Part shown: positions 6,840 through 62,472 of the stretch, piece by piece | Layout: every line of letters starts with the position of its first letter | Position numbering within the stretch: position 1 is the stretch's first letter | Source: Chloranthus sessilifolius | Taxonomy: Eukaryota > Streptophyta > Magnoliopsida > Chloranthales > Chloranthaceae | NCBI GenBank assembly: GCA_021018995.1 | Contig: CM037586.1 | Location: 150,454,060 to 150,518,059 of the forward strand | DNA length: 64,000 nt | Direction of reading: 5' to 3' | Notes under the pieces: generated by a model | What the model was told of the DNA's origin: nothing | The model's database searches: none | Seen by the model: the letters and a program-made list of their open reading frames with translations, nothing else | Position numbers and translations under genes: made by a program

Positions 6840-7069
6840 AAGGAATCAAACTCGGTATCGGTATCAATTAGCGGTCCATCTTGACAAACAGATAGCCGAC
6901 ATCGAATTGGTCTTTTTTACGAAAAAAATAGAAAGAACAATATCGACATCAATTCATTGGCCCAATACTAATATCTACCGATACCACCTGAAACCTCTAT
7001 CAAGGTGGAATCGATCGCTTTCTTGGAAACCAATATGTATCGATATATCACCGAAGTTTTGATACCATG
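6840..7069. mobile_element. short palindrome-filled MULE-like element (copy 1 of 8)
   Basis: Starts AAGGAATCAAACTCGG. Its far end, read inward, is CATGGTATCAAAACTTCGG. Flanks are TTCAACACC (6831-6839) and TTCGACGCC (7070-7078), 7 of 9 identical. The interior repeats GGTATCG- and CGATA-type words. It lies in the captured DnaJ intron. Confidence 0.7.
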
Positions 7070-7126
7070 TTCGACGCCATTAAGAAATCAAGTGCATAGA
7101 ATTTGCTCCGAATACCAGACGCATAC

Positions 7127-7189
7127 CTTTATAATCCGACCCAATCCTTTACATTTATTGCATGTTGAGGTGAATGGAGCAAGCGTAAC
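7127..7189 (-). pseudogene. captured DnaJ exon, zinc-finger repeat
   Basis: A 63-nt open segment with a TTCAG acceptor and GTATGC donor encodes 21 residues including TCNKCKGLGRIIK, one CxxCxGxG module of the DnaJ zinc-finger domain. The intron between this exon and 6727-6799 contains a short 9-bp-duplication element (6840-7069). Confidence 0.72.
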
Positions 7190-8970: not shown

Positions 8971-9065
8971 TCACAGTGCATATAGAACTTCTTCAAAACA
9001 CACATTGCATGGAACTCAAATCCTAGATGCTCTGACTTGTTGAAAATAAGGATTGAATATACTAA
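8971..9065. repeat. about 95-bp direct repeat, copy 2
   Basis: Near-identical to 6494-6592, same strand. High identity suggests a recent duplication or gap-repair event inside the CACTA element, later than the capture of the S23 fragment. Confidence 0.9.
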
Positions 9066-9107
9066 TTGTATCAGTCAATATCGGCCGAAACGTTAACAAA
9101 CTATAGG

Positions 9108-9345
9108 CTAATTATGCATGAGGAGGTTGTTACCTTCAATAATCAAAGCCAGGGGAATTCTACCAGATCCGACACTTCCTTCAAATTTTTGTGAATCCGT
9201 GAACATTGCTGTAATTTTCCAAGACACGTCCATTGCTGTGATTTTCCTGGACATGAACATTGCTGTTATTTTTCTAGACATGTCCACTATCGAAGTCATG
9301 TCACCACTAGTAACATTGCTGTTATTTTTCTAGACATGTCCACAC
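9108..9345 (-). repeat. minisatellite with an in-frame peptide repeat
   Basis: Four units of roughly 27-30 bp with the core CATTGCTGTNATTTT and the boundary TAGACATGTC. On the minus strand three units read SRKITAM or SWKITAM in one open frame, which then enters unrelated sequence. No known protein is recognised. It lies directly beside the unknown captured exon. Confidence 0.7.
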
Positions 9346-9355
9346 GGCATCTAAC

Positions 9356-11159: not shown

Positions 11160-14100
11160 ATCTTCCATGACATCAAGAACCAATGGCGATGCTAAAGTAT
11201 TCTGCATTAATTCTTGCCTCAAATACTAATGGATCTTCATAAGCATCTACATCTCGAGTCAATCTCTTTGGAGCATCTAAGACAACATACCATAGTTTGG
11301 TCCTTGCAATAGAAGACTTGGGTGGCTTGGGAGGCAAGAATAAACGGCTCGTCATCTTCATGTGAACTCCTCATAAGCCTCCCAAGATTAACAAAAATTA
11401 AGTTTACGGATCAACAACACATCCATTTGTTTTATCTTCTATACGTACCCAATCACGTGAAGAAGATTCTTTAAAGTTACCATAATTCAGGTTCAAGTAT
11501 TTGTTTGAGGATGCCATAATAAGTGACTTCTTCTTCCACAAGGTTCTTATCTTTGACACTAGCCCTAAAATTAGTTAAAGCCTTCATGGAGATACTTTCG
11601 TGCTTGTACTCAAATTCACGACAAAAAGATATCCATTAACCACATAAGAATTATACGATATGGCTTTGAAGTCTGGACCATCAGCAAGACTCTTCAAGGT
11701 AAAAGACTCTTTTTTTTCTAATTGTTGTCTTAACCAAGGAATGTAGTTGGCCCTCAGATGTTTATCACATGACTTGTGGCCTTGGAGGTTAGATTGGTAC
11801 TTCCTATAAATGTTGAGTATTAATTAGATCAAGTATTTCACTATTATTTATGGAAACATAATGACGGTATTTATAAATATTACTTACATCTCCCATTCAA
11901 CATTTTCTGGAGAATGTGTGAGAATCCATTTACGCGCTTGTTGGAATTGCAAGTTTTGAAGGTAATAGACTTTTCCTTTTTTATCGAGAGGGAAACCATG
12001 TGTAACATCATAATCCATGAACATTATATCTCCTCGCTTATGCCCTCCTGCATTATCATTTGGCATATACTCCATACGACTCATGCATTCTTCCATTAGA
12101 TATTGCTCGTAATAGACCCCTCTCGGATAAGTCCGATTTTTACATAATGCTTGTAAGTCTTCATCATCCTATACAATTTTCTTCAATTAGATATCAATAA
12201 TACTAGTAAAAAGAAATACTTTAAAAGTCGATTATGAAGGTTTACCTTTCAATGGATACATCCATCGATATCGAGCAGACCACATGTTAGCACCTCATCC
12301 GCCAAGTGAACAACAAGGTGTATCATAGAAACAAAAATGAAGGCGGAAGTACTTTTCAAACACGCAGTGCTTGATCATGCGTCTCCTCATGTTTATAAGC
12401 TCAACCCGATCTATAACTTTGGAACATAGGACATTAAAAATATTGACATTTGTCGGATAGCTCTCAATGGCTTTTCTTTCTTGAATGCATGCATCAACAA
12501 CACAGTAGTAGTTGTTGCATGAGGATATGATAGTCATGTGACTTCGTGCCTTTAGGTTGAAAATCCTCCAAACTTACGTTATACTTCCAATTTACCTTTG
12601 TATCCAATGGGAACTTTCAAATTATACAATGTTTCACAAATTAGTTTTCTTTCATCTCGAGATAAGACAAATGGAGCTTTAGGGCAATACACCTTGTCAT
12701 TTTTCTGCACAATCCATAAATTTTTCTTTATCTTCATTTCTTTAAGATCATATCGGGCCTCAATTCCATCCTTACTTTTACCTTTGTATCCATAATCGTT
12801 GCAATTAAATTTTCCGTAACATTCTTTTCCACGTGCATTACATCCAAATTATGACGAACGGGAAGATCCTACATTTATAAAGTAAAAAATTAGTATTCAA
12901 ACAAAGTTTATTGGAGATCACATAATAAAAATGAAAGGAAAATTTTATCACCTTCCAATATGGTAAGTCAAATAGGATTGATCGCTTTGACCATGCATAA
13001 CTCTCTTCATTCGTGGGCTTTTTCCTCTTCTTTCCTGCTGCCTTTCCGAACGTGGTCTGAATTGTTTCCATTTTACTTAAAACTTCTGAACCGCTCATAC
13101 GGCGTGGATGTTTCCTATGTTCTTCCTTACCATTAAATTGGGATTTCTGAGTTCTGAAAGGATGATTTAAATCTGTAAGGAACTTTCGGTGGCCCATGTA
13201 AGCAAATTTCTTTCCGTGATATAACCATACGGAGTCAACCTCTTCACTACAAATAGGACAACCATATCTTCCTGCTGTCCTACAACCCGAAAGATGACCA
13301 TATGCTGGAAAATCATGTATAGCCCATAATAAAATTCCTTTCATGTTAAACCTAGTTTTTGTATAGGAATCATATGTTGTTGCTCCAGTGGACCACAATT
13401 CATTTAATTCTACAAGCAATGGCTGCAAGTAAACATCAATGTCATGTCCAGGACCATTGGGCCCGGAAATCAATATGCTCAACATTGTAAACTCCTTGCG
13501 CATGCACAATGATGGAGGGAGATTGTAGGGAACAATCATAACAGGCCAACAACTATAAGAGTTATTCTTATTGCCAAAAGGATTGAATCCATCTGTGGCA
13601 AGTCCTAGACGAACATTACGTTTCTCTAAACCAAACTCTTTCCACTGAACATTAATTGATTTCCAACAAGAAGAATCTACGGGATGCCGCATGTGACTAT
13701 CATTTGCAACTGAGTTTGCATGCCATGTCATTTTCTCTGCAATCCACGGTACACTATACATTCTTTGTAGCCTCGGAATTAATGGAAAGTATCTTAATTT
13801 CTTCCATGGCAACGGCTTAGCCCTCGGCTTTGAAGCATTTGGTGGCTTCCATCTGCTCGTACCACATGTAGGACAAGTATCCTTATTTGCATGATCTCTC
13901 CAATATAATATGCAATCATTGGGGCATGCATGAATAATCTCATATTTCATACGTAAAGACTTGATCAACTTTTTCGCATTGTATGTGGTATCTGGCAAAG
14001 TATTTTCTTCAGGAAGTATGTTTTTTATCATTTTCAACAGCTCTGTGAAGCTTTTATCAGACCACTGATGCCTAGCTTTCATGCTCAACAACTCAATCGT

Positions 14101-14585
14101 GACTGACAATTTTCTGTGCTCATTTTACATAGCGGATACAAAGGTTCTAATGCACATTCCATCAAGTTACTATACCCCGCATCATCATGTAAATCATGTG
14201 GACGTTGCTCGTCATCTTCATCATAAGCATCATTTAAGCAAGCATCTAAATCTTCAGTACGAACACCTCCGAATGTGTTATTCAACATATCTTCCATTCT
14301 TGGAAACCTATCTTCGTTTGGGTTAGAAGTCGATGTACTAGTCCCCAAATTGGTATGACTATTAGAAAATGATTCTCCATGGTGCTTCCATATCGTGTAA
14401 GACTTATCTATACCATCACAAAATAAATGTTCCATAATAATCACGAGGCTATGCTTTTTAAGATTTCGACAGTTGACACAAGGACAACAACACCAATCAG
14501 GATCTTCTACATTTTCTTTTGCGAATTTGATAAATGAATGAAGACCTCGATATATTCCACAGTTGTATGATTTGCCGTCATCCAC
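11160..14585 (-). pseudogene. CACTA TNP2-type transposase gene, frameshifted
   Basis: Starting from the Met at 14585, the first ORF is a Transpos_assoc domain (CCCPCVNCRN zinc-binding segment, IWKHHGE). It frameshifts near 14100 into a 423-codon ORF (12838-14109) with HACPNDCILYWRD, the CPTCGTSRW ribbon, the LATDGFNPFG and GPNGPGHDIDVYL catalytic-core segments and GCPICSEE. After an intron (about 12869-12950), DLPVRHNLDVMHVEKNV continues, and later exons carry the YRWMYP (near 12270), DUF4218 and DUF4216 regions down to about 11170. The order matches plant TNP2, which cuts the element ends. The damage is modest (a frameshift near 14100 and stops near 12300-12400), so it decayed less than the MURA gene. 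Confidence 0.85.
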
Positions 14586-15580
14586 TCTTTACTTGGGATT
14601 GTTGAAGACATTCTACAAAACTAAATGAAGGAAAAATCACAACAATGAAGGAAAAAAATTGAAGTTTTAGAGAGAGAGAAAGAGAGAAAAAGCACAAGTG
14701 ATAGGTGCCCATATGACTGATAATGGCTTATTTGAACCAGCATAATATGAGCCGGTATTGGCTGACTTGTATACTCATATTTAGATCAGGCCTAACACGA
14801 TATATACATGTCAGCCCCTGGCCCATTTTTAAAACTATGCGCCAGTTATCATTTTCCTAAAATATAGAAACAACCCAGCAAAACTGGAGTTTCTGACAAC
14901 AACAAACAAAATTTCAACAACCCAAAAGATTAGAAAACAAGAAGATTGAATTATGGTAAGCTCATGGACTCAAGATCCATTGTGTGGAAGATTAGGGGTG
15001 AAAAAGGATCTCTATCGTATGAATCCAAGAAGTCCACAAGTTGATCTTTTACTTTTTATCGAACAGTGTTCAACATTTTTCTTATTATCTAATAGGGTCC
15101 CAGACCTTGAACTTTTTCATTTCTTTTATTAAGCATAAGCAAACAGGGTCTAAATATTTGACATATGTTGAAATTTAATTTAATTGAAAAAATGGGTTAG
15201 ATGAAAATTTCCTTAGGTTTCATATGATACTTCTTTATATAAGATTGATCGTTTATGTTAGGTGAAAATTCCCTACAAGTGACCGATCAATCTCATAGTG
15301 GACTGGTCTGACTTGTACGGGGGGACCAATCTCATGTTGATGGAGTTTGTTTTTCGCACCTATCTTTGATCTAATTGATCTTTAGATCATGAACATACAA
15401 TCACATCGTTAGATTTTGATTTCACAACTTGAAAAGTGAGTCAATATCGGTTGACGAGTTAGCATCGAGCGATTGATCTGAATCGTTGATATGTATGTGC
15501 CAACACTTGATACCATGATTCTAACATAATTTCAACACATAATTAGCATAATTTTTACATAATTTGAAAATCGACCAAAA
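14586..15580. other. CACTA region upstream of TNP2
   Basis: No coding signal. It includes a GA-rich tract (about 14670-14695) close upstream of the TNP2 start on the minus strand, probably 5' untranslated region or promoter. No clear TATA box was found. Confidence 0.4.
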
Positions 15581-17602: not shown

Positions 17603-19702
17603 TTATAACTGCCCATTGGCGTTTATCAACGGTCGAAACAAATTGTTCTTTATAAGTTTCCCTAAATAAGGCACTGGTAAACCAATGATCACAAAATTGA
17701 GGAATGGAATCTCTTTATTCCATTTTCTGCGCGATAATGCAGCAATCGCATGCGAATATGGTAATCCAAGGATAGCCCAACGTCTGCATGTACACGTTCG
17801 TTTCTCTAGGTCGACACTGTGAGTGTATTGCCCACGTTTAACTTGAAATGTATCACGACCATAGAGAATAACGTTCTTTCGACGGGCCCACCCTGAATTT
17901 CGTGTTATGTGCTCTTCCACCATCGGTGTTAACTCGTGTGTCATTTTATTTCCTTCTTCTTGACGCCGAAGGTAGAATTCGACTACCTTCGTGTGAATGG
18001 TTTCTAACATTGTCACAATCGGTTCCTCTCTAGCTATCTTCAACACACTGTTAATGCTTTCAGCTATATTTGTTGTCAGCATGTCATAGCGCTTTCCTGA
18101 AAAATATGCGCATGCCCAGAAATGGTCACCGACTTCTTTAATCCATTTTATACATTCTGGGTGGGCCTGGTCTTGTATTTTTTATAAAATTCTTTTGAAT
18201 TTTACCTCGGAAAATGCACGGGCAGTAATCCAAAACAGCGGTCGAGAGATTGTATCCTTGTATGTATCAAAAGCATTACGCACAGCTTCCATCAATCCCA
18301 AAGGCCGGTCTGATATCAATACAAATTGTTCTTCAAATTCCCCGATTATGCGTCTCCCTAATAGATCAAGGAACCATGTCCAATGATCTTCATTCTCTTT
18401 GGGTACAACACCGAATGCTATAGGGAATAAATGTCTATTACCGTCTATCCCCGTAGCTATTAACAACACCCCATTGTATCATCCGCGCAAATGCGTTCCA
18501 TCTACCGCAATTATTCTTCGCAAAGTATTACGATAGCTCCTAATGTAAGGTCCAAATGCTACGAAGAGCCTCTGAAAGGCATTATCAGGCTCGCGACATA
18601 ATTCGGTCTGTACGTCTGGATTGATTCTCTATAATTCAGCGATATAGGATGGTAACATCTTAAATTGCTCCTTCCAGCTACCTCAGATGTCGCTTAAAGC
18701 CATTTCTTTCCCTCTCCATACTTTCCAATAACTTACTGCTATCCCATATTTTTTTTCAATATAAAAAATTATTGAAGCAGGAGTCTCGTCAAAGCCTTTT
18801 AACAATTTATCTCTCACGAAGGAAGCTATCCAAGAATTCGTACACTGGCGATGTCCTCTTTCGAAAGTTGGCATTCCGCACGTATGTTGCGGGCGAAATG
18901 TCTTCACGACAAACGTGTCCACCCCCACAAATTTTGATGCATGTATTCGCCAAGCATACCCTAATTGAATACAGCTCCTGGTAACTCGAAGAGGACTGGT
19001 TTTTATTGGTTTATTTTAAAAATTATTTGTCATTGCAAACTCTCTAAGGGCTTTTTGAAAGGTTATTTTATTTCTGAATGCTTGACTGACAGTTAATGGC
19101 CCCCCTTCATACAATTCTTCATCATCCGAATCCATATACTCTCCTTCCGAGTCATTAAGCTGATAGCCTTCGTCCACCATAGGTTGATCAATTCCCCTAT
19201 TAGTATGAACACGCGAAGTGGGCGAGGAGGGCAGTGATTCAGTATTTTCAGGATCACTATCACCGTCGTCGACTGGAATATTATTACGTGCTTGGGGTTG
19301 AGTCCATCGAGGTATGGTTAGTGTTCGCTCCTGTGCTTTGGCCTCGATTACCGTTCGCTCCGAAGCTATTTGTTCAGAAGGCCATTCGTATGGACTAATG
19401 CCTCCCAAAAATATTTCCTACTGATTCCAATCAAATATGTTGTTCACCGCTTCATCGTTATGCTGACATGTATTGTCCATCGGATTCATTTGAGGATAAT
19501 ATCCTTGATCTTCATCGTCTTGTCTCATTGGAACGTCTGAAGACGCTATTGGTTCCGTGACATGAGTGATTAATGTATTGTCCATCGGATTCATTTGAGG
19601 ACAATATCCTTGATCTTCATCGTCTTATCTCATTGGAACGTCTGAAGACACTATTGGTTCCATGACATGAGTGATTAATGATTTCTCGATATAAACATTT
19701 AT
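17603..19702 (-). pseudogene. MURA-type MULE transposase, main part
   Basis: Continues the N-terminus from 32912. In order: an acidic linker (19016-19702) with a 35-codon tandem duplication; the Mutator DNA-binding region (18683-18984); and the MULE transposase core with catalytic Asp in AVDGTHLRG near 18500, Asp in VLISDRPLGL near 18320 and Glu in TNIAESIN near 18060. A C-terminal SWIM zinc finger (CTCRRWAILGLPYSHA near 17760) follows. These match the DDE residues and domain order of plant MURA. One SWIM cysteine is replaced by Tyr. At least five in-frame stops are present (near 19016, 18683, 18630, 18480 and 18182), so no transposase is made. It ends 245 bp from the CACTA insert and faces the ULP-like gene tail to tail. 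Confidence 0.88.
19467..19680 (-). repeat. 105-bp tandem duplication within MURA
   Basis: Two copies of a 105-bp unit (starting about 19469 and 19574) differ at a few bases. The period is 35 codons, so the frame was preserved. The encoded repeat has the pattern MNPMDNT, THV-EPI, SSDVPMR, DDEDQGY. One copy has acquired a stop. Confidence 0.85.
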
Positions 19703-19707
19703 CACAC

Positions 19708-21496
19708 TGATGTGATTTTTTTAATGTGATGTTTTACTCGCAAGTGCACGAATCGGTTTGTATATAGTGGGTGCGGAGTACGAGATCGTTCCCACGAGGA
19801 TTAATTTTGAAATATCTAAAAGAGACAAGCAATTCTAGAAATCTATTAAGATCTAACAGTATTCTACCGGTTTTATGATTTAAGCGGTTGATGAGATGGT
19901 AATTAATGACTACAAACTAAAATTCAATTGATAATTCAAAAGTAAAAGTGAAGATGATGATAAAGATGAAGATACTAAATCCTCCCATCTTTGGTCCGTT
20001 CTTCCTATAATATAAATCTAAGGATTAAATTATGAGATATTTCATTGGTAACAAACATCTTTTATGGAAGATCAATGGTCAACACCCTAATAGGTTCCAC
20101 ATTGCATCCCTGCAATCAGGACTTAGATGATTTTCATATATAGATCTGGGATCAAGGGCATGACTAGGCACACATGATCTCAGGTTCAAATAAAAATCAT
20201 CCCCAAAGTGGGTGAAAATTTCAACAAGAATACCACTTATAAATCAAATCAATTACACTTTATTCAGATTAGGGATTATTTAAGATAAAATTACCATTAC
20301 AGAACCAAGATCCAGGGCATGGCTCGGCACACTCGATCCCAGAACATAATCGTAATTAGATCCACACGATGAAAGCAAAAAGACCATAACAATGATTGGG
20401 TAAAATTACCGTCACAGATTTTAGATCCCGGGCATGGCTCGACACACGCGATCCCGGTTAGTGGCGGGAATTTCATCCGTTCATGAAAACACAACAACCA
20501 TAAAATAAAATCTCATATTTTAATCATAAATTTATATTATTAAAAGTACATCCCTCGGATGGGAATCATTAGATCCCCATCTCTATAAATTTAGCCACAC
20601 ATATTGTAAGTAAATGACATAAATAAATAAAGACGGGAAAATAACATTAATTAAAATTACCTCAAACTTCAAAAGAACTTACTTTGATCCACAAGTATGA
20701 TGATCTTCAGAAACGAAATTAATGCAGGAATAAACTTTGAACAAAATTTAGGAATGAGTACTGAAAAATTAAAGGGAACAAAGCTCTCAAAAGAATAATA
20801 AAATTTCCCTATTTCTATGTCTAACTATGAAAAATAATGGCTAAAAACTAAAGCTCTCTAAAAAAACTCTCCTTCTAATCCTCCTTAATCTACTCTAATT
20901 TTCCTCCCTTTCCCGAAGTGTTTGAGTCGCTTTAAATAGACCCTCGTCGCGGGAGTCTCCTAAGCCAATATTTTCGGGTCGATTAATCGACCAGGGAGGG
21001 TCGATGCATCGAGCCGCCAAAACGTCCCAAAAATCAGGTTTACAGTGTCAGTTTCGTGTCAGACTCTGACTCTGCCTCGATTAATCGACCTATAGGGTCG
21101 ATGCATCGACCCCAGAAATCCGTAAAATTCAGCACTTTCTCTTGGTTCAGACACTGCTTCGGTATTTTGGCCATAACTTTCTGTCCCGAACTCGGATTGA
21201 GGTGATTCTTGCACCGTTGAAAAGAAGACGAAAAGATCGACAACTTTCATGTTTTGATAATTTCGTAATTCAGCCATCTTGAAGGTCCAAATTTAGCCGC
21301 AAGTCGCACCAAGTTCTTGATTACCCAAAGTTGCAGTGTTTTGACATTATATTCAGAATTCTTGGACTGTTTTCTATACTTGGCTTGTATTTTCCTGAAA
21401 CACTTCAAATCTAATCAATCTCATTAGATAGCCTTCATCGGACAGCTAAATATAGGTATTTAGGGGTAAAATATCATCATTTTTCAGTACTCATCA
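19708..21496 (-). repeat. 3' LTR of the Athila-like element
   Basis: 1,789 bp, closely matching 31096-32906. It contains three imperfect copies of a motif with the core GGGCATGGCTCGGCACAC (near 20160, 20315 and 20425) and four TCGA-palindromes (20970-21112). Confidence 0.92.
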
Positions 21497-26519: not shown

Positions 26520-28886
26520 TCAGTCAGGGTGAGCCAGTGGCTCACTCAAAGAAATAGTGTCAGAGAATGCAATCGCATTCTCAAGGAACGGTTTCAATCG
26601 CTGACCGTTAACTCGAAAAACATTCCCGTGTTTCGGGTTGATAATATCGACTGCCCCATTGGGGAATATTCGAGAGATTTTGAAAGGACCACTCCAACGG
26701 GTTTTTAGTTTCCCTGGAGATAGATGAAGTCGGGAATTGTAGAGTAGAACTTGTTGACCAACAACGAACGATTTCCACAGAATAAATTGATCATGAGCCC
26801 GTTTCATACGGTCCTTATACGATTTAGCACAGTCATATGCATCAGCACGGATTTCCTCTAATTCATTTATTTGGAGACCCCTTTGGGTACCAGATTTTAG
26901 GAGATCGAAATTCAATGACTTAACGGCCCAAAATGCTCGATGTTCCAATTCAACCGGGAGGTGACATCCTTTACCAAAGACCAACCGATACGGCGACATG
27001 CCAATCGGAGTTTTAAATGCAGTTCTATACGCCCATAGAGCGTCATTCAACTTTAACGACCAGTCTTTACGGTTCGGATTGATTGTCTTTTCTAAAATCC
27101 GCTTAAGTTCCCGATTAGAGACTTCAACTTGGCCACTTGTCTGAGGATGGTAAGGTGTAGCAACTTTGTGTGTGACACCATATTTTTTCATTAATTGGGT
27201 GAACACTTTATTGCAAAAGTGCTTTCCACCATCACTGATTATCGCCTTTGGAATGCCAAAACGTGAAAACACTTGATCCTTGAGAAATTTGATCACTACT
27301 CTGTGATCATTAGATTTACAAGCCACAGCCTCCACCCATTTCGAAACATGGTCAACACCGACAAGAATGAACATATTTCCAAACGAATTCGAGAAAGGAC
27401 CCATAATATCGATCCCCCAAACATCAAATAATTCAACTTCTAGAATTGGATTGAGCGGCATCATGTTGCGGATTTGATTGTGACAGGATTTGCAATGTTG
27501 ATGACAATCCTTAAATATCATCGGCCAGTAAAAACCACTTTGAAAGATCTTTGCTGCAGTCTTTTTGGAACTAAAGTGACCTCCACAAGCTAATCCAGAG
27601 ATGATTCGTGGTTGCTCGGATTCAGGAATACATCTTCGTATGATTTGATCAAGACAGTATTTGAATAAGTACGGATCTTCGAAAAAATAGTGTTTCACCC
27701 GAGCTAAGAAAATAGATTTCTCATTCTTCAACCAATGGTGAGGAAATTTCTCGGTGACTAGGAAATTGACAAGATCCGCATACCAAGGTGGGCAATCAAT
27801 CCTGAACAACTGTTCATCTGGGAAGTGCTCCAAGATCAGAACAGGCTCGTCAGGTTTCTCAATAATTATTCGTGACAAGTGATCGGCCACCACATTTTCT
27901 GAACCTTTCATGTCCTTGATCTCCAAATCGAACTCTTGCAACAACAAGATCCACCTAATTAAACGTGCCTTAGCGTCTTTCTTAGCGAACAAATAACGCA
28001 AAGCAGCGTGATCTGTGAATACCACAACTTTAGATCCTAATAAATAGGATCGAAATTTATCCAACGCGAAAACTACCGCCAAAAGTTTCTTTTCAGTGGT
28101 CGAGTAGTTCAACTGGGCATCGTTGAGAGTGCGACTCGCATAGTAGATTACATGCGGTAATTTTTCTATTCGTTGCCCCAAAACAGCTCCAATTGCATAA
28201 TCAGAGGTGTCGCACATAATTTCGAACGGGAAGGCCCAATTCGGAGATTGAATTATTGGAGCTTTTATCAATTCGGCCTTAATAGTTTCAAAGGCCCGCA
28301 AACATTTATCATCAAAGATGAATGGGGCATCTTTTGAAAGTAAGCTGCAGAGCGGCCGTGCTATCTTACTGAAATCTTTAATAAAACACCTGTAAAAATC
28401 GGCGTGGCCCAGAAAAGATCTGATTTCCTTCACTGTCCTCGGTGGTGGTAGGTCGGCAATTAAATCAACTTTAGCCTTATCGACCTCAATACCCTGGGAC
28501 GATATGATGTGTCCCAAAACAATGCCATCTTTAACCATGAAGTGACATTTTTCCCAGTTAAGAACAAGGTTTTTCTCCTGGCATCGTGCAAGCACTAGCG
28601 ACAAATGATTCAAACAGTCAGCAAAACTGTTTCCATGTATCGAGAAGTCGTCCATGAAGACTTCCAGGAATCGCTCGACCATATCTGAAAAAATACTCAG
28701 CATACATCTTTGGAATGTAGCTGGTGCATTACAAAGCCCAAACGACATTCGTCGGTAGGAGAAAGTACCAAAAGGACATGTAAAAGTGGTCTTCTCCTGA
28801 TCCTCCGGTGCAATGACTATTTGGTTATACCCGGAATAGCCATTGAGAAAGTAATAGTACTCATGCCCGGCCAATCTTTCTAACAT
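26520..28886 (-). pseudogene. pol: reverse transcriptase, RNase H and integrase
   Basis: A 788-codon frame continues RT after one stop. RT motifs are [14 protein letters not shown] and EVFMDDF (about residues 50-80). In the first catalytic motif the expected Asp is Asn ([10 protein letters not shown], codon AAT). RNase H follows ([51 protein letters not shown]; residues 225-350). Integrase follows with an HHCC finger ([18 protein letters not shown]), the core Asp residues in GIDIMGPFS and IISDGGKHF, Glu in [12 protein letters not shown], and a C-terminal tail ending in a VNGQRLKPF segment. The product would copy RNA to DNA and insert it, but the stop and the Asn make this copy inactive on its own. 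Confidence 0.9.
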
Positions 28887-31095: not shown

Positions 31096-32906
31096 TGATG
31101 TGATTTTTTTAATGTGATACTCACAAGCGAATTTAATCGATTTGTATATAGTGGAGTGCAGATGCAGATCGTTCCCACGAGGATTAATTTTGAAATATCT
31201 AAAAGAGACAAGCAATTCTAAAAATCTATTAAGATCTAACAGTATTCTACCAGTTTTATGATTTAAGCGGTTGATGAGATGGTAATTAATGACTACAAAT
31301 TAAAATTCAATTGATAATTCAAAAGTAAAAGTGAGGATGATGATAAAGATGAAGATACTAAATCTTCCCATCTTTGGTCCGTTCTTCCTATAATATAAAT
31401 CTAAGGATTAAATTATGAGATATTTCATTGGTAACAAACATCTTTTATGGAAGATCAATGGTCAACACCCTAATAGGTTCCACATAGCATCCCTGCAATC
31501 AGGACTTAGATGATTTTCATATATAGATCTGGGATCAAGGGCATGACTAGGCACACATGATCTCAGGTTCAAATAAAAATCATCCCCAAAGTGGGTGAAA
31601 ATTCCAACAAGAATACCACTTATAAATCTGAAATCAAGGGCATGGCTCGGCACACTTTATTCAGATTAGGGATTATTTAAGATAAAATTACCATTACAGA
31701 ACCAAGATCCAGGGCATGGCTCGGCACACTCGATCCCAGAACATAATCGTAATTAGATCCACACGATGAAAGCAAAAAGATCATAACAATGATTGGGTAA
31801 AATTACCGTCACAGATTTTAGATCCCGGGCATGGCTCGGCACACGCGATCCCGGTTAGTGGCGGGAATTTCATCCGTTCATGATAGCACAACAACCATAA
31901 AATAAAATCTCATATTTTAATCATAAATTTATATTATTAAAAGTACATCCCTCGGATGGGAATCATTAGATCCCCATCTCTATAAATTTAGCCACACATA
32001 TTGTAAGTAAATGACATAAATAAATAAAGACGGAAAAATAACATTAATTAAAATTACCTCAAACTTCAAAAGAACTTACTTTGATCCACAAGTATGATGA
32101 TCTTCAGAAACGAAATTAATGCAGGAATAAACTTTGAACAAAATTTAGGAATAAGTACTGAAAAATTAAAGGGAACAAAGCTCTCAAAAGAATAATAAAA
32201 TTTCCCTATTTCTATGTCTAACTATAAAAAATAATGGCTAAAAACTAAGAACTCTAAAACTAAAATTCTCTAAAACTAAAATTCTCTAAAAAAACTCTCC
32301 TTCTAATCCTCCTTAATCTACTCTAATTTTCCTCCCTTTCCCGAAGTGTTTGAGTCGCTTTAAATAGACCCTCGTCGCGGGAGTCTCCTAAGCCAATATT
32401 TTCAGGTCGATTAATCGACCAGGGAGGGTCGATACATCGAGCCGCCAAAAAGTCCCAAAAGGTTTAGGTATGGACTCGACTACGCCTCGATTAATCGACC
32501 TATAGGGTCGATGCATCGACCCCAGAAATCCGTGAAATTCAGCACTTTCTCTTGGTTCAGACACTGCTTCGGTATTTCGGTCATAACTTTCTGTCCCGAA
32601 CTCGGATTGAGGTGATTCTTATGTCGTTGGAAAGCTGACGAAAAGATCAACAACTTTAATGTTTTGACAATTTCGTAATTCGTCCGTCCGGAAGGTCCAA
32701 ATTTAGCCGCAAGTCGTACCAAGTTCTTGATTACCCAAAGTTGCAGTGTTTTGACATTATATTCAGATTTCTTGGACTGTTTTCTATACTTGGCTTATAT
32801 TTTCCTGAAACACTTCAAATCTAATCAATCTCATCAGATAGCCTTCATCGGACAGCTAAATATAGGTATTTAGGGGTGAAATATCATCATTTTTCAGTAC
32901 TCATCA
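31096..32906 (-). repeat. 5' LTR of the Athila-like element
   Basis: 1,811 bp. It differs from the 3' LTR by a few substitutions and small indels, including a fourth copy of the GGGCATGGCTCGGCACAC motif (near 31630) and a short tandem AAAATTCTCTAAAACT duplication (near 32260). Its outer 70 bp next to the primer site differ most. Confidence 0.92.
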
Positions 32907-33179: not shown

Positions 33180-33316
33180 TTCAATCTACAAATATTAAAA
33201 AAAAATGAAAATTAAACCTTAAACCCTAAATTGATCAATACAATGGAAAAAATAAATAATAGAAATTAAACACTAAATTGATAATAATAATAAAATTAGT
33301 CAAGGTAGCTAGCGTC

Positions 33317-33437
33317 CCGCTATCCTGATATAACGGTCCGCTATCTCAAGATAGCGGGCCGCTACTTCAAGATAGCGGCCCACTACTTCAAGATAGCGGT
33401 CCGCTATCCTATGATAGCGGTCCGCTATAGCGGGCCG
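33317..33437. repeat. right subterminal cluster of AGCGGTCCGCT palindromes in the MULE
   Basis: Five or six copies of GATAGCGGTCCGCTA type lie in 120 bp, about 225 bp inside the right TIR. It is the counterpart of 2043-2135 and lies upstream of the MURA start, so it could also serve as a promoter element. Confidence 0.75.
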
Positions 33438-43081: not shown

Positions 43082-43881
43082 TAGGGCTGCAACAGAGCCG
43101 AGCTAGCTCGACAGCTTGGCTCGGTTTGGCCCAAAAATGAGAGCTTTTACTCTCTTAAGCTCGACTTGAGAACCAAAGTAGAGCTTTTATTTATAACTCG
43201 GTTAAAGTAGAACCGAGCTAGAGCTGAGCTTGTAATACTCGGCCCGACTCGACTGGATTAATAGTATATAATACTTTTATATATAATAAAATATAATATA
43301 TATAATTTTGATTTTTCTTTTACTTTTTCCCTTTATAATAAGATTCATCTAATTGTTACTTTATAATGGATAAATATGTAATAAATATATAATCCTTATA
43401 ATCGTCTCTTAAAGTTTACTCTCTTTCCTTCTGTAACTATTAAAGTTGTTTCTCACTTGTCTCAATAAACAACTAGCATAATAATTGACCAACCAATCAA
43501 CACCTAGGGCTGGCACTTATGCTCTTAATTAATATTTAGCACATTAAAATTAAACACATTTTTCTCCTATTTATCAGTTAAATCTAAAAGAACTAAGGGA
43601 TTAAAAGATATTAGGGATTTCAATTTTTAATTTTATTAAAGCTTTCATCTATTAAAAAAAAGAAGATAATGTCTGAAACAACATTATGAAAAATAATTTA
43701 TAATAAAATTTATTTAGCTTGAATCCTGGCTCGGCCCAACTCGAGCTCGATAGAGCGGAGCTAGAGCTCCGACTTTTCAGGCTCGAAGGGGCTAGATCTA
43801 GTTCCAGCTCGGCTCGTATTAGGTAGAGCCGAGATAGAGTTGACCCAAGCTCGGGCTCAGCCCGGCTCGGTTGCAACCCTA
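43082..43881. mobile_element. hAT-like non-autonomous element, copy A
   Basis: The left end is TAGGGCTGCAACAGAGCCG. The right end, read inward, is TAGGGTTGCAACCGAGCCGG. Duplications are AATATAGT (43074-43081) and AATATGGT (43882-43889), 7 of 8 identical. Both ends are full of GAGCTCGGCTC words and the centre is AT-rich. A reverse-oriented relative lies at 62578-63431. Confidence 0.82.
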
Positions 43882-45488: not shown

Positions 45489-45709
45489 GACACCATGGAT
45501 CAAAATTTCATCCGATACCGATACGAATTGGTATCGGTGACCTCCGATACGATACATTGAATGTACTGTATCGGTCGTTGTATGAGTTATACCAAACGAT
45601 ACATTCAATGTATTGCTCGATACAGACCGATACCGATACATATTGTCCAATACATATCGGTTTTGAGCTCGGACGATACGTATCGGTTTTCCAGCATTTT
45701 GATCCCTGG
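45489..45709. mobile_element. short palindrome-filled MULE-like element (copy 2 of 8)
   Basis: Left end near ACCATGGATCAAAATTTC. Right end, read inward, CCAGGGATCAAAATGC. The interior is filled with CGATACGTATCGG-type palindromes. Flanks TTGGCAGTT and TTGGCACGC agree at 6 of 9 bases, so the exact edges are less certain than in the other copies. Confidence 0.55.
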
Positions 45710-46711: not shown

Positions 46712-46857
46712 TGGTATGGCATCAAATATCAGCCAATACCGATATATATCGGTTTTTCGACAACCCAATATGTATCGGCACCCCAACTCGGTATCAATAT
46801 TGGCCAATACGGCCTATATCAAGTATTGACAGATACGAATCAGGTATCAGTCGATAC

Positions 46858-46921
<64 letters not shown>

Positions 46922-47008
46922 TTAGTGCTCCGATACGTATCGGTATCGGCCTATTTGTATCGGTCCATGAAGGACCGATATCCGATGTCGGTACCCAATT
47001 TGACACTT
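46712..47008. mobile_element. short palindrome-filled MULE-like element (copy 3 of 8)
   Basis: Left end TGGTATGGCATCAAAT. Right end, read inward, AAGTGTCAAATTGGG. TGGATAC occurs at both flanks (46705-46711, 47009-47015), 7 of 9 bases overall. The interior has CGATACGTATCGG words and a (TA)n run at about 46860-46918. Confidence 0.65.
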
Positions 47009-47184
47009 TGGATACATGGCCATCCACATTCAATCGGATTCTTAATATTTAATCTAATCACTGATGGGAAATTTCCCTCCGGACTGTAAATCTTAAATTT
47101 AGCTCAACAAAGTCCTTCGTACTGCATTAATTTGGCCAATCATGTTCCTTTAATGCAAAATTTCAGTGTATTGATGTCCTGCCT

Positions 47185-47421
47185 AAGGTATCAAAAATTG
47201 GCCAATTCCGATACTATTAGTTTTCTGCCAAACCGATACATATTGGTATCTCGTATTGGTATCGCCGAACGTATCGGGAATCGCCGATACGTATCGGGTA
47301 TCGGCCGATATGTCTTGGTTTCAACTGAAATGGTAGTTTCTTTTTCTTTTTTATTTTTTTTACTTTTTAATGGCCAATATGTATCAGCTGAGGGTAAACC
47401 ACTACCCAATTTGACACCTTG
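47185..47421. mobile_element. short palindrome-filled MULE-like element (copy 4 of 8)
   Basis: Left end AAGGTATCAAAAATTGG. Right end, read inward, CAAGGTGTCAAATTGGG. Flanks GTCCTGCCT (47176-47184) and GTACTGCCT (47422-47430), 8 of 9 identical. The interior holds the CGATACGTATCGG palindrome several times. Confidence 0.8.
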
Positions 47422-48694: not shown

Positions 48695-48703
48695 TTCATA
48701 TCA

Positions 48704-49387
48704 TAGTTCAAAAACCTGAAAATTCAACTCGACTCTAAAATCAACCGGGTTGATCGAGTATGCTCAAAGACTCGAAAAAACCTCGACTCAGTCCAACTCG
48801 GTATATATATATATATATATATATATGAGAAAATTAATAATAAATAATAATATAAATATTAAAATGTAATGAATCAGGCGATGGAGATTTGGTTTCGCAA
48901 ATAACTCTGCATAGTGCGTATACTTAGCCGAATTCTTGCAAAAAAATGTAAAAAATAAATGTAACCTCTTCATCTTTATTAAAAAAAAAAGGGAATAAAA
49001 CTATGAAAGTTAAAAAGAAAAAAGAAAAAGTGAAAATACATACCTGTTGTTCTTCTTCGACTTTTTCTTCTTTGACAGTTCGACTTTAGCGTTTTAGAAG
49101 GTTGTCGGAGGTCGCTCGGCAAGGGAAAGTGGAAAGTTTGCAATCGGATGAGGTGAGATTTATAGGAGTTTTAGCTTTTATATGAAGTATTTTTCAAATG
49201 AGCATATTTGTCCTTTAAGAAACCAAAAACTACCCGCCAGTCTAAAGCTCAGCCGAGTCATCCGAAACACGACCGAGTTTCACGTCTAACTTGAAAATTC
49301 GAGTATTAAGACGTTTATCTGAATTCTAATCGAGTCGAGTTGACTCGGCTAAGTTTCGAGTGACTCGACTGAGTTTTTAAACCATGA
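48704..49387. mobile_element. palindrome-bearing MULE-like element (copy 5 of 8, long form)
   Basis: Left end TAGTTCAAAAACCTG. Right end, read inward, TCATGGTTTAAAAACTCAG. Flanks TTCATATCA (48695-48703) and TTCATATGT (49388-49396), 7 of 9 identical. Here the palindrome word is of the GACTCGAC / CGAGTCGAGT type, and a central 400 bp is unique AT-rich sequence. Confidence 0.65.
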
Positions 49388-51699: not shown

Positions 51700-52072
51700 G
51701 TGAGTTCTTTTATTAAATGTTTTGGCAGTTTGGATTAGTTGATTATGTTTTTATATGTAGTTTTAATTAGTTCTTTGTTCAACGTGTGAAGTTGTGTTTG
51801 ATTTACTTCAATTTTTAGAATTAGAGTTTAATTGTTTTGCTTTACTTGATAAAATTGAGATAAGGTTGGATACTTAATTAGTTCAAAAAATCAAATAATC
51901 TTGGCCATGACTCGGAATATTGTAAAAGGCTAATTGTATAAATAAATAAATACTTAATTACTGGCGCCTAAGTTTTAGCTGTCGAATCCTGTCAAAGGCT
52001 AATTTTCACCGATTTGCTTGGGCATTGTTATCTCTCGTAGTTAGCTTTTGACATGATCGTTGTCCTAAAAGA

Positions 52073-52326
52073 AAGGTTTAAAATGTCAGCAGTATTTACT
52101 TATCTGATGAGACCGTTATGATATAGAGAATCCTTATACCGTTTATACTGCTGGTACAAAAACTAGATGTATATCTATACCTGTATAGTCCTCTATTTTT
52201 ATCAATTTATATATTTTATTTGAAATTAAGATATCAATGTATCAGTATATACCGGCCGGTATAAATGGTATATACTAGTTCCGGCTGTGGCCGGTATTTG
52301 TGGCGAGAGCTAGATTATAAACCTTG
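52073..52326. mobile_element. short palindrome-filled MULE-like element (copy 6 of 8)
   Basis: Left end AAGGTTTAAAATGTCAGC. Right end, read inward, CAAGGTTTATAATCTAGC. Flanks CCTAAAAGA (52064-52072) and GCTAAAAGG (52327-52335), 7 of 9 identical. Its palindrome word is of the TATACCGGCCGGTATA type. Confidence 0.72.
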
Positions 52327-55626: not shown

Positions 55627-55664
<38 letters not shown>

Positions 55665-56770: not shown

Positions 56771-56955
56771 AATGTCTTGAGGGGCAGTAAGAAAGAATTT
56801 TTCTTGAAAATATTTACTATTTAGGACATGAAAATTGATTACTAAATTGGCTAATATTAAACACTTTTGAAAGTTGCTGATTCCTCCATTTATTGGAGCT
56901 GTATGTAGATGATCTTCAGTATGATTGGCATGTGAACCATTGATAATGTGTGCAG

Positions 56956-57365: not shown

Positions 57366-57439
57366 GTATTATATCCCTATCTCGATGTTAGTTAAGATCT
57401 TTTTGTACAAAAACTTTCTGCTTTTACTGGTCAGGGATC

Positions 57440-58692: not shown

Positions 58693-58701
58693 ACCTTATC
58701 A

Positions 58702-58935
58702 AGGTTCAAAATTTCGGATTTCGTTTCGGTTTTGGGCTGGACCGAAACCAAAAGTTTGAACTGAAATTTCGGCCGAAAACTACAGCTGTGAATGAATAAC
58801 CGAAATTATTGGTTTTCGTTTCAGTTTTGGTGGGGACCGAAACCGAAACATTTCGGCTGAAATCTTCACATTTCGGCTGAAATCTTCACATTTCGGCTGA
58901 AATCTGAAGATTTCAGCTGAAATTTTGAACCATGA
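58702..58935. mobile_element. short palindrome-filled MULE-like element (copy 7 of 8)
   Basis: Left end AGGTTCAAAATTTCGG. Right end, read inward, TCATGGTTCAAAATTTCAGC. It is flanked by the perfect 9-bp duplication ACCTTATCA (58693-58701, 58936-58944). The interior repeats GAAATTTCGGC words, including three tandem CATTTCGGCTGAAATCTT units. Confidence 0.88.
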
Positions 58936-58944
58936 ACCTTATCA

Positions 58945-59399
58945 CCACCATCGTCAACAGAATAACCACCGTTTTATTGGCATCCCCTTGATCTCTACAA
59001 GTTTGAATATCGTGAGTGTCTAAGATATGTACTCCACTCAGTCTTAGCTTAGCACAGTCTCCACCCATTGCATCATATACTTATACATTATTCTGCTTTT
59101 CGAATATTGTTCCTCTCTTTCTCTGTTACCACAGGGCAATGGATTGTCTCATGTGAAAATGTAATCCAGATTAATGCTATTATGAGTAATTATATCCTTC
59201 GTTTGTTTCTAACGTGCAATGCATGGAAAAAGTTTAATGTCTTTCAGGTGAACAAGTTACATGTTTTCGTGCAGTGAAAGCGTACTCCATTTTCGCCAAC
59301 AACTTGTGGGAAGATATGCCTTTCTTAGGAATGGTACATAATTCCTTTATTGTTCCTTTTTATGCAGAACCACGTGTCATTCGATAGAAAATTCCTCAA
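58945..59399. other. unassigned stretch before the second LINE
   Basis: No gene or repeat was resolved. The 69-codon ORF at 59068-59277 has no recognisable features. Confidence 0.4.
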
Positions 59400-61197
59400 A
59401 TCCTCCTACAAAGGATGGAGCTGAATAGATCTCTGACTTCAAAACCATTAGTATGTTGATTAGTGTTTACAAAATCCTTACAAAAGTTTTACCCAATAGA
59501 GGCAACTCATGGGTTCCATTGTATCCTCGCTTCAAGGGGCATTTGCATGGGGAGACAAATGTTGAACATGATGGTCGTGGTTCTTGAGGCAATTGATTCC
59601 CGCCATAGAGATAAGATCCGGTATTATTTGCAAGGTGGATATGCAGAAGGTCTACGATCAGGTGTATTTGGGCTTTCTTGATTATATGATGCCTAGGCTT
59701 GGGGTTTTGCAAGAAATGGAGGGGTTGGATGAGAGCTTGCTACTCTTCAGCTTAGTTTTTTATTTTAGCAGATGGTACACCCAATGGGTACTTTAAAAGG
59801 TTGAGACAAGGGAAGCTTTACTGCTGTTCCTTTTTAACATGGTGGGAGAGGCTTTGGGGAGATTGCTTCAGAGAGTGTATACTAGTAGTCAGTTTATGGG
59901 TTTTCAGGTGGCTAGAAATGGTCTGATAATTATGGATATTCAGTTCGCCAAAGATACTATGATTGTTTATGGGGCTCGAGTAGTGAGCTATGGTTTGTCA
60001 GGTCAATCATAACTCTCTATGAAACGATTTTAGGGCAAAGGGTTAATCTTCACAAAACTAGACTGCTTGGGGTTGAAGTGGATGAGAATGTTCTGGGTGC
60101 TCTGGCTAGAGAAGTGGGTGTATAATGAGCTCACTTCTGTCTACTTATCTGGGTTTGCCACTCTGTGTTGAAACCCAAGGACTCCTTTTGGAGCCGATTG
60201 TGCAGATATTTGAGAATAGGTTGGCGACTTAGAAGAGAAATTTACTTTCTAATGGGAGATGTCTTGGGCTCATAAAGACTAGTAACTTGTGAATGTACAA
60301 CATGAACACGTTTCGTTGTCTTATGGCGATCATTGACTGGCTTGAACTGATTGAGAGGGAGTTCTTATGGGAGGGAAGAGGAGAGGGGAAGAGGATTCAC
60401 TTAATAAATTGGGAAGTTTTCCTTCTTTCGCAGAAGGAGGGGAGATCTTGGTATTCATAGATTGTGAAAGGAATAAAGCCCTCCTTGGGAAGTGGTTGTG
60501 GATGATAGGGACTGAGAGGGGAGTCCCATGAGTCCAAATTTTGACCTCCAAGTATGGAGAATGTAATAACGGCTGGGATATAAACAGTAGAAAAAGTAGA
60601 GCTTTTGCCTGGTGGAAGGAGTGTGCTCTATAAATAATGAAATCTACCAGTGTATTAGATTTGATTGGGTTGTGAGTGACAAAATCTACTTCTAGTATAA
60701 TGTTTGGGTTGGGAATGTGACCCTTAAAGCAAGGTTCAGAGACTTCTAAGTGGTTGCTTTGGATCCGAGTGCATTGATAGTTGATATATATAGCAATGAA
60801 GATATTGACATCATATGGATTATTCAAATGAGGAGAAATTTGAGAGTCAACTTATTTCTCATGTTGGTTGAAGTGTCGGACCTTATTGGGGGATGTAGGC
60901 CTTACCATAGTGGTGTGGATGGGAGGGTGTGGAAGTTGGAGAGCAAGGGGATTTTCTCAGTTCGGTCTTTCTATACTCTGTTCACCAACCTCTGATTCTT
61001 CATAATTGGGTGATGGTATGGAAAGGTTGTGCTCATTCTTGGGTGTGATTCTTTGGGTGGACTCTAGCATGAGGGCAGATCCCAATGGCTAACATGTTAC
61101 TAAAACAAAGTTTGACTACAAAATAGGTGTGTGCCTGCTTGGAGAATAATTGACTGATCATCTTTTCTTATGTTGCTGGTTTGGAAGAGAGGTTTGG
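59400..61197 (+). pseudogene. L1-type LINE, 5'-truncated, part 1
   Basis: The plus strand reads RT segments: SDFKTISMLISVYKILTKVL (59430), GRQMLNMMVVVLEAIDSRHR (59548), IICKVDMQKVYDQV (59620, where the usual AYD is VYD), a RLRQG remnant (59800), IQFAKDTMIVY (59940, the FADD motif changed to FAKD) and later WEGRGEGKRIH (60370) and WKLESKGIFSVRSFY (60930). The order is that of plant L1 ORF2. There are many stops and frameshifts and no endonuclease part. It is cut at 61197 by a solo LTR, resumes at 62478, is cut again by the hAT-like element at 62578 and ends after 63440. Confidence 0.78.
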
Positions 61198-62472
61198 TGA
61201 TGCAGTAAAATCGCTAAAACCCTAGTTATGCAATTTTGAAATCAATTTGAGATTTAATTGACTAGCGGAGATATAGAAATTAATCTCAAAACGCAAAATA
61301 TTTAATGACTTTATTAGGGCAATTTAATTGATTCGATTTAGTGCCCGTTAGTATATGAACTTTCCGATTTAGAAAATAGGTCTAAAGATAGACTCTAGTT
61401 TCGATCTAGTTTAGGGTTCCAAGCGACGATTTCAATGTTGGCTCGTGACTCCTTGCTAGGATTTGAATAATTGAAGGCCCGAAGGGTTTAAATCGTTCAA
61501 AGGGAATCAACAAATTAGGGTTAGGAATTTAGAAAACAAAATCCTATCAACAATATCTGAGAAAAGTTATTTAAGTTTGATTTCCGGTAAAATAAATAAA
61601 TTACCTGACAATAATCAAAAGATAAAATAGAAAAGGAATAGAAGTTCTAACTTCTAAGGCTTCATACTAAGGAAATAGTTGGTCTCAAGGATCAAAATTT
61701 CGGTTTTCGTTTCGGTCCTGCCCGAAACTGAAAATTTGAAATTTTGGTGCCTTTTTTTTTTTTTTTTTTTAATTAAAATTATTTAAGTAGCAAAATATCT
61801 GCCGATAATTTGAAATTATTGGCTGATATTTTGTTAATCACCAAATTATCGGCCAATAATTTGGTGATTATCAAATTATCGGCTGAAATTTTGAACCATG
61901 GTTGGTCTCACACCAAACCGCCCACAAAATCGAAGAATCTCTCTTCGAGTTTGAAAGAATCGCTCTTTCAGGTGAAAATTCTTCACAAGCTTTCTAGGGT
62001 TTTGCACAAAGCAAAACTCTCGATTCATTAATTATCAATCAACTAAAATAAAGTCTTTACATGCCTTTATATAAGCTAAAAAAACTCTAACTAAACATAA
62101 AATTCGAAATAAGGTAGTTCTTAAACAAATAAAACATTAAATGGCAAGTTTTTGTTTAAAATTCGTGTAAACTGCCTTTCACTGGCTACTTTCACGGAAG
62201 TCCATCATGTGACCACGGAGGTCCGGCCTATGACGGAAGTTGGCACAGAAGTCGCATGGAAGTCCATGCCTTAAATTCCAGAACTGCTTTATTTCACGGA
62301 AGTTTGTCTTGGGCATGGAAGTCCGTCATATGACGACTTTTCTTTCTTTCCTTTGCTTTTCTCTTGCAGATTTTCCTTGAAGTGAGCAACTCGCCTTGTA
62401 TGAAGCGCCTTGGGCTTCTTCTTGCGTCTTCAGTTCACGCTAGATGATGCATTTAATCCGATGTCCCCATCA
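61198..62472. mobile_element. solo LTR
   Basis: 1,275 bp starting TGATGCAGTAAAATCG and ending TCCCCATCA, flanked by the perfect 5-bp duplication TTTGG (61193-61197, 62473-62477). TG...CA ends with a 5-bp duplication and no second copy mean a solo LTR from recombination between two LTRs. It carries a short MULE-like element at 61688-61901. Confidence 0.8.
61688..61901. mobile_element. short palindrome-filled MULE-like element (copy 8 of 8)
   Basis: Left end AGGATCAAAATTTCGG. Right end, read inward, CCATGGTTCAAAATTTCAGC. It has the perfect 9-bp duplication TTGGTCTCA (61679-61687, 61902-61910). The interior is a T tract followed by AAATTATCGGCCGATAATTT-like words in both orientations. It is inserted in the solo LTR. 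Confidence 0.88.

Follow-up and report, generated by a model that had tools for sequence, protein, structure and literature searches.

How have short elements that share their ends come to carry different palindromes inside, and what kind of transposase has moved them? The question is raised by a stretch of 64,000 nucleotides of Chloranthus sessilifolius DNA (contig CM037586.1, positions 150,454,060 to 150,518,059), referred to here as the window. A first-pass annotation had described eight such elements in it and had attributed them to a MULE partner, with 9-bp flanking duplications and interiors remodelled in nearly every copy.

Eight elements with common ends in the window

All eight elements were present, with bounds shifted by 0 to 5 bases, and shared inverted ends of the CAWGGWTCAAAAT type, which are common to elements of the family. 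They are listed below with corrected bounds and with the two flanking copies of the 8-bp target-site duplication (TSD).

6839-7069: GATAC-word element; ends CAAGGAATCAAAC / CATGGTATCAAAAC; TSD TTCAACAC/TTCGACGC (6/8)
45494-45708, + strand: GATAC-class element that represents the class-1 consensus (216 bp) as one of its copies; 12 CGATAC words; TSD GTTGACAC/GTTGGCAC (7/8)
46715-47010: GATAC-word element with an AT-repeat interruption; left end TATGGCATCAAA, right end (reverse complement) CAAAGTGTCAAA; TSD GATACTGG/GATACATG (6/8)
47184-47421: GATAC-word element; TSD GTCCTGCC/GTACTGCC (7/8); singleton in interior clustering
48702-49386: 685-bp element with CGACTC/CGAGTC words; ends CATAGTTCAAAAAC/CATGGTTTAAAAAC; TSD GTTCATAT/ATTCATAT (7/8); singleton in interior clustering
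52072-52326: element with TATACCGGCCGGTATA, without CCGA/TCGG words; ends AAAGGTTTAAAAT/CAAGGTTTATAAT; TSD CCTAAAAG/GCTAAAAG (7/8)
58700-58934, + strand: GAAAT/GAAAC-class element, in the 18-member GAAA cluster; TSD GACCTTAT/AACCTTAT (7/8)
61686-61900, + strand: element whose words are of the CGAAA type in the left part and CGATAA in the right part; TSD GTTGGTCT/GTTGGTCT (8/8); singleton in interior clustering

The element at 6839-7069, a singleton in interior clustering whose short hairpins are gone (coverage 0.00), is probably old, and that at 46715-47010 is a weak member of the family. The elements at 48702-49386, which lacks the class words, and 52072-52326 likely represent separate families, the former with related and the latter with similar ends.

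The target-site duplication is 8 bp long

With corrected bounds, the 8-bp duplication matched at 8/8 positions in one window element, at 7/8 in five and at 6/8 in two, and a 9-bp reading gave 2-5/9 in the eight. The frames of the first-pass annotation, which had claimed two perfect 9-bp duplications, score 7, 6, 3, 8, 7, 7, 9 and 9 of 9. The two 9/9 cases are seen in those frames because the element's first two bases, CA, recur behind the right-hand duplication; the 8-bp frame gives GTTGGTCT/GTTGGTCT (8/8) and GACCTTAT/AACCTTAT (7/8) instead. The eight window elements by themselves do not decide between 8 and 9 bp; the copies in the genome do.

Flanks were compared in 28 class-1 copies, consisting of 27 relatives and the window element at 45494-45708 itself, and in 40 genome copies picked by their ends alone. 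Mean flank identity in the class-1 copies was 0.893 at k=8 versus 0.246 at k=9, with 0.365 (maximum 0.473) for shuffled flank pairing. The duplication was perfect in 17/28 of them at 8 bp and in 0/28 at 9 bp, and amounted to 3-5 of 8 in 4/28. The end-selected copies gave 0.909 at 8 bp versus 0.208 at 9 bp; 23/40 were perfect at 8 bp and 0/40 at 9, with 33/40 matching at 7/8 or better and 7/40 below that. At k=10-12, identity was likewise at chance in both samples. The duplication of 9 bp that had been proposed was therefore not borne out, and a MULE with a 9-bp duplication is ruled out by these flank statistics. Mutator/MULE duplications are about 9 bp or longer, which does not agree with the k=9 identities of the family.

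Base preference within the duplication was then tabulated. Among elements with a duplication of at least 7/8, T was found at position 2 in 26/37 and A at position 7 in 24/37; the corresponding end-selected copies gave 20/33 and 24/33. The hAT transposon Hermes prefers nTnnnnAn targets (PMC10368747). The family thus displays both the 8-bp duplication and the target preference of hAT elements, and from these two features together we conclude that its members are most likely hAT-type MITEs and not MULE-driven.

Candidate partners in the genome

A MULE-like SWIM open reading frame, a remnant, does lie in the window at 17603-18181, and in the original frames two of the eight elements reach 9/9 and one 8/9, as a MULE partner would predict. 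However, a search for family ends in pairs up to 12 kb apart, with a match of 11/12 or better and a TSD of 6/8 or better, found none that encloses this remnant. Flanks of 9 bp are no more alike than chance in the 28 and the 40 copies, and interiors are common to many copies. Duplication length, target pattern and the unbounded remnant of the window thus give the MULE partner no support, and we regard the model that combines it with 9-bp duplications and copy-by-copy remodelling as highly improbable.

Domains of the hAT type are plentiful: 4130 first-look candidates for the hAT dimerisation domain were present in the genome, and all 150 that were scored exceeded the cut-off. For 20 of these 150 matches, the 3' flank was scanned over 0.9 kb for the family end of an autonomous partner, and none was found. 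A weak AATGGTTCAAAAC was noted at L063 in the same flank scan.

The terminal inverted repeats (TIRs) of hAT elements begin with YARNG, which fits family ends starting with CAAGG but not those starting with CATGG. The elements might instead be P-element-type or Novosib-type MITEs, since the Drosophila P element starts with CATG and generates duplications of 8 bp. Both types are among the MITE superfamilies found in plants (PMC7385995), but the T2/A7 target pattern fits hAT and hAT domains abound in the genome, and we consider such an origin improbable.

A family of about two thousand or more copies

A genome search with the inverted ends, as the first-pass annotation had suggested, found the exact pattern at 1984 places in the 2.17-Gb genome, compared with 0 for the reversed control. 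The 1984 exact-ended copies are those of one narrow length range, and the end-selected copies of the sample are about 200-235 bp long. The family is thus short, high in copy number and bounded by terminal inverted repeats, as MITEs are. In 200 kb, an end scan at 11/12 or better was clean, with 1 pair at k=6, 7 pairs at k=8 and none at k=7, 9 or 10, whereas the looser scan (at least 9/12) gave 263, 119, 39, 11 and 3 pairs for k=6 to 10, counts that follow the chance trend. MITEs are non-coding; here, stop-to-stop frames of 121-212 amino acids overlap the elements at 45494, 46715, 47184 and 58700; no Pfam match was obtained among the six overlapping frames scanned.

Interiors of the main classes are inherited as lineages

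The interiors fall mainly into two multi-copy lineages, one with CGATAC words and the other with CGAAAT/CGAAAC words. Clustering of the 40 end-selected copies gave 26 mainly-GATA, 9 mainly-GAAA, 2 in a pair and 3 single. Uniform ends over more than one palindrome class, as had been anticipated, are therefore found genome-wide, and it is the ends that define the family. The vocabulary differs by class, but not by copy as had been supposed: when forward matches of the element at 45494-45708 were scored, the 39 besides itself showed 81-89% identity to it, and in every case except one the match covered nearly the whole length. In the two main classes, homology between copies extends over most of the element, which rules out interiors made anew in each copy there; these interiors are inherited lineages. 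A class may have arisen, or a hairpin been lengthened, by template switching.

Word purity inside elements was 0.921 versus 0.627 when permuted, and in 4/25 elements both word types occurred two or more times. Mosaic interiors were considered for four mixed elements, but the transition test gave P values of 0.035, 1.0, 0.059 and 0.20, and therefore no firm block structure.

The palindromes are ancestral and conserved

Short hairpins were assessed in 16 elements (8 from the window and 8 sampled) against 200 dinucleotide shuffles each, the element at 46715 being run on 46714-47009. Coverage exceeded all 200 shuffles in 9/16 elements and was reached by 1/200 shuffles for 47184 and 2/200 for 58700. 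It was ordinary in L034:3464 (15/200), 48702 (13), L036:1330 (30), 52072 (35) and 6839. The element at 45494-45708 had a DNA fold z of -6.4 (computed on 45495-45708). In the two main classes, the consensus folds more strongly and is more palindromic than the copies; the palindromes are ancestral, inherited and decaying after insertion.

Divergence at non-CpG columns was 0.030 in palindromes versus 0.117 in spacers, with 0.024 in the ends, and 0/187 mask rotations were as extreme. This was replicated in 21 end-selected copies (0.072 versus 0.249; 0/203 rotations) and in 7 GAAA copies (0.062 versus 0.186; 0/182 rotations). Palindromes and ends are thus conserved to a similar degree, and the palindromes therefore probably aid transposase recognition.

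The elements might instead be hAT-type MITEs whose palindromes are by-products of template switching and gene conversion in gap repair, with no part in transposase binding, and gene conversion between hairpin arms could also account for the low palindrome divergence. Long hairpins in the consensus sequences (a 26-bp perfect palindrome and, in the X2 consensus, a long hairpin on the left side) and the homogeneity of words within elements speak for such an origin. Double changes at palindrome pairs speak both ways: all of them (6/6) are complementary, but 7.4 doubles of any kind are expected by chance under independence, so there is no excess. Moreover, the ancestor was more palindromic than its copies, which have decayed and have not gained in palindromicity, and palindrome positions are kept across the copies of a lineage. 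We consider the by-product origin possible but rather unlikely.

A probable hAT-type family with putative subterminal repeats

Several hAT transposons need sequence well beyond the TIRs, including subterminal repeats. We think it likely, on the evidence above, that the elements form a high-copy non-autonomous hAT-type MITE family, with the palindromic words as putative subterminal repeats bound by the BED domains of a hAT transposase. A hAT transposase encoded elsewhere would cut at the family ends and insert at targets with an 8-bp stagger. The repeated palindromic words would be bound by its BED zinc fingers, and each lineage would keep its own words as the sites, or cooperative site pairs, preferred by its transposase variant. 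The 6/8 duplications of the elements at 6839 and 46715 and the absence of class words from those at 48702 and 52072 are points against the hAT reading, as are the CATGG ends and the poorly matching duplications in 4/28 class-1 and 7/40 end-selected copies.

More tentatively, and with more doubt than belief, we suggest that the words form a transposase-recognition code, in which about ten copies of CGATAC would have been swapped in concert for CGAAAT/CGAAAC in a lineage, in step with a change in the BED-finger specificity of its hAT transposase and with the ends nearly unchanged; elements with similar ends carry CGACTC or TATACCGG. Such a code would provide a natural series in which to follow a joint shift in specificity of a protein that binds DNA and of its dozen dispersed sites. 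The evolution of subterminal repeats is hard to follow in families with few elements; here, about two thousand or more copies have the same ends and alternative palindromic vocabularies conserved about like those ends. Should these words prove to be binding sites, the family would allow a direct test of how a transposase and its numerous sites co-evolve; if they are not, the copies form a large data set on the making and homogenising of hairpin DNA in MITEs.

Comparison with known systems

No published description of the family was found by title and start of abstract, mostly outside the subscription literature and Repbase. When the end words and palindromes were used as literature queries, the listed end-word matches held no transposon paper by title, and the palindromes gave none. 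In the available text of a plant MITE review (PMC12595863), "palindrom" and "subterminal" occur 0 times.

The earlier statement that no described family has this architecture was nevertheless too strong. Maize Ds elements (Ds1, Ds2 and Ds-l4) have common short TIRs and 8-bp duplications with very different interiors, and Ac/Ds carries multiple AAACGG subterminal repeats that the transposase binds cooperatively (PMC3260210, available text). Ac/Ds thus resembles the present family as a non-autonomous hAT system with shared short TIRs, 8-bp TSDs and unlike interiors. In contrast, the interiors of Ds2 and Ds-l4 are filler, whereas here they consist largely of palindromic words differing by lineage, Ac has an 11-bp TIR, whereas the ends here read CAWGGWTCAAAAT, and the Ac partner is known, whereas none was found here in the 3' flanks of 20 hATC matches.

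BniHAT-1 and BniHAT-2 are likewise high-copy plant hAT MITEs recognised by an 8-bp TSD, but they measure 666-673 bp, and "palindrom" and "subterminal" appear 0 times in the available main text (PMC7385995). The short interrupted repeat cassettes (SIRCs) of Arabidopsis also tie short-word repeats to MITE interiors; as described in the available text (PMC10342631), however, SIRCs consist of direct repeats, their spacers are diverse and their TIRs have been lost, whereas the present elements have palindromic words and intact TIRs.

Hermes shares with the family short repeated sites near the ends and the nTnnnnAn target pattern, and its BED domains show cooperative binding to a pair of subterminal repeats that forms a quasi-palindrome (PMC10368747). 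Additional transposases on repeats further inside the ends were judged unlikely to matter in cells, a view that counts against our explanation of palindrome binding. Hermes is an autonomous insect element, for which the available text describes only two repeat pairs as palindromes (PMC10368747). The family described here, unlike Hermes, has many palindromic repeats, and these are class-specific.

Target site duplication and copy number

The palindromic elements in the window (positions 150454060-150518059 of contig 3, in a 32-contig genome of 2.17 Gb) represent a real, well-defined hAT-type MITE family with a target site duplication of 8 bp; those at 48702 and 52072 are candidate members that may resemble the others at the ends only. 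The element at 45489 and 27 relatives (28 fetched places, drawn from 40 scored places that were the best 40 of 3733 first-look candidates) formed class 1, and their ends were placed at CATGG...CCATG for flank scoring. Flank identity was 0.893 at 8 bp, with 17 of 28 perfect, and 0.270 at 7 bp; shuffled pairing of flanks gave 0.365 (maximum 0.473). Four of the 28 (L009, L014, L021, and L022) matched at only 3-5 of 8 positions and count against an 8-bp length.

Copies selected by their ends alone behaved in the same way. The pattern CAWGGWTCAAAATN{180,210}ATTTTGAWCCWTG occurred at 1984 exact places and its reversed control at none; among the first 40 listed, every one from contig 1, flank identity was 0.909 at 8 bp, compared with 0.352 (maximum 0.422) for shuffled pairs. 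The duplication was perfect in 23 of these, matched at 7/8 or more in 33, and was lower in seven. The first-pass annotation had proposed 9-bp duplications, a length at which identity fell to 0.246 (28 copies) and 0.208 (40 copies). When the eight window elements were read together with their flanks and rescored, they matched at 6-8 of 8 positions in the 8-bp frame versus 3-9 of 9 in the earlier frames, and each of the two apparent 9/9 duplications proved to be an 8-bp one (8/8 in one case, 7/8 in the other) extended by a fortuitous CA. Among elements with a duplication of at least 7/8, T occupied position 2 in 26/37 and A position 7 in 24/37 of sites in the first tally, and 20/33 and 24/33, respectively, in the end-selected tally.

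The narrower pattern GGTTCAAAATTTN{165,195}AAATTTTGAACC had 12 exact places in the genome (reversed control, 0). All were read, and nine carried family-type ends in the proper position, with a duplication of at least 6/8 in six and 5/8 in one; L071 and L072 have family-type ends but no duplication. A strict end scan of a 200-kb sample (20 stretches at round coordinates, two adjoining the window) found seven pairs at a flank length of 8 bp, one at 6, and none at 7, 9, or 10; the eighth element of the sample has slightly looser ends. Nested or composite elements exist: L076 consists of two halves of family elements facing each other, and L110 (contig 1, 12335153-12335364) holds an extra family end within one side. 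Two other fetched places, L077 and L080 (the latter GGTTCAAAATTTTGGCCTGACGGTGGGCACCCAC), represent a different hairpin family, and since their flanks are inverted rather than duplicated, its true ends probably lie further out.

Interior classes

Genome-wide, the same ends were found with more than one interior class, the outcome that the first-pass annotation had named as support for shared ends with different palindromes. When 65 elements (40 end-selected, 8 from the sample, 9 from GGTTCAAAATTTN/AAATTTTGAACC matches, and 8 from the window) were clustered, 31 grouped in a cluster where GATA (CGATAC-type) words predominate and 18 in one where GAAA (CGAAAT/CGAAAC-type) words do; the others formed one pair and 14 singletons, which included six of the eight window elements. 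Exceptions in the GATA cluster were L071 (three GATA and four GAAA words) and L073 (one of each); CGGTAC/CGGTAT words are additionally present in many GATA-class copies. Word types sorted by element with a purity of 0.921, versus 0.627 (maximum 0.696) after permutation, on 227 words from 25 elements, the window element at 52072 contributing none. The different words seem to vary a single core, CCGA/TCGG being enriched in 15 of 16 elements (13-47 per kb versus 4.2 per kb in the sample; 0 in 52072).

Ancestry and conservation of the palindromes

The palindromes are ancestral and conserved within lineages. The 216-bp class-1 consensus contains one perfect 26-bp palindrome and three further hairpins, and its predicted DNA fold is -74 kcal/mol versus -44 for the window copy (45495-45708; z -6.4 relative to shuffles). 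The GAAA-class consensus folds at -78.4 versus -44.6 to -63.7 in eight copies. At non-CpG columns of the 28 class-1 copies (82 palindrome, 52 spacer, 28 end), divergence from the consensus was 0.030 in palindromes, 0.117 in spacers, and 0.024 in ends; none of 187 rotations of the palindrome mask was equally extreme.

With an automatic mask, palindrome and spacer values were 0.072 versus 0.249 for 21 end-selected copies around L095 (0/203 rotations equally extreme), 0.063 versus 0.239 for 21 around L098, probably largely the same copies, and 0.062 versus 0.186 for seven GAAA copies (0/182). In all these sets the contrast between palindromes and spacers may be inflated, as the consensus that defines the palindromes also scores divergence. 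At CpG columns the contrast was not consistent across the four sets (0.118/0.161 in class 1; 0.121/0.094, 0.125/0.210, and 0.190/0.179 in the replicates). Double changes at palindrome pairs numbered six, all complementary, versus 7.4 doubles expected, and gave no clear sign of pair-wise maintenance.

Other features of the window

ORFs in the window include tnp2, SWIM, plant-mobile-domain, and reverse-transcriptase types, which suggest a plant genome.

2045-2125, 3583-3684, and 33307-33429: a 21-base unit repeated in arrays and containing palindromic GATAGCGG..CCGCTATC words
12838-14588, minus strand: CACTA-type tnp2 transposase with transposase-associated domain
17603-18181: SWIM zinc finger ORF
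19783-21367 and 31166-32777: two direct copies with 93-99% identity, at a spacing of about 11.4 kb
26520-28886, between the direct copies: ORF with reverse transcriptase, RNase H, and integrase domains
43082-43881 and 62578-63431: inverted repeat of about 850 bp, two copies, pieces 75-89% alike

The arrays add a further palindromic vocabulary outside the MITEs. We read the SWIM ORF as a MULE-like remnant; no MITE ends bound it. Because they flank the reverse transcriptase/RNase H/integrase ORF, the direct copies are probably LTRs of a single retrotransposon; GTCGATTAATCGAC and GTCGATGCATCGAC palindromes occur in both putative LTRs and in the retrotransposon interior. The inverted repeats lie about 19 kb apart, with seven of the eight window elements between them.

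Putative transposase partner and comparison with known systems

Six stop-to-stop frames that overlap four of the window elements gave no Pfam match. The hAT domain had 4130 first-look candidates in the genome, and all 150 that were scored exceeded the cut-off; the family end was found in the 3' flanks of 0 of 20 hAT-domain candidates. The shared ends, the 8-bp duplication, the target preference, the copy number, the interior lineages, and the conservation of the palindromes were established for the family; its copies would be moved in trans by cut-and-paste by a hAT transposase, for which the palindromes may serve as subterminal binding sites.

We found no published description of the family in the open-access papers searched. 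It is ordinary in kind; what is unusual is its lineage-specific palindromic vocabularies, conserved about as well as the ends. In maize (PMC3260210), Ds elements share common TIRs and 8-bp duplications around heterogeneous interiors, and Ac transposase binds AAACGG repeats cooperatively. The study of Hermes (PMC10368747) describes cooperative binding of a quasi-palindromic repeat pair by BED domains, considers binding deeper within the ends unlikely to be important in cells, and gives the target pattern nTnnnnAn, which the T2/A7 preference of the duplicated sites matches.
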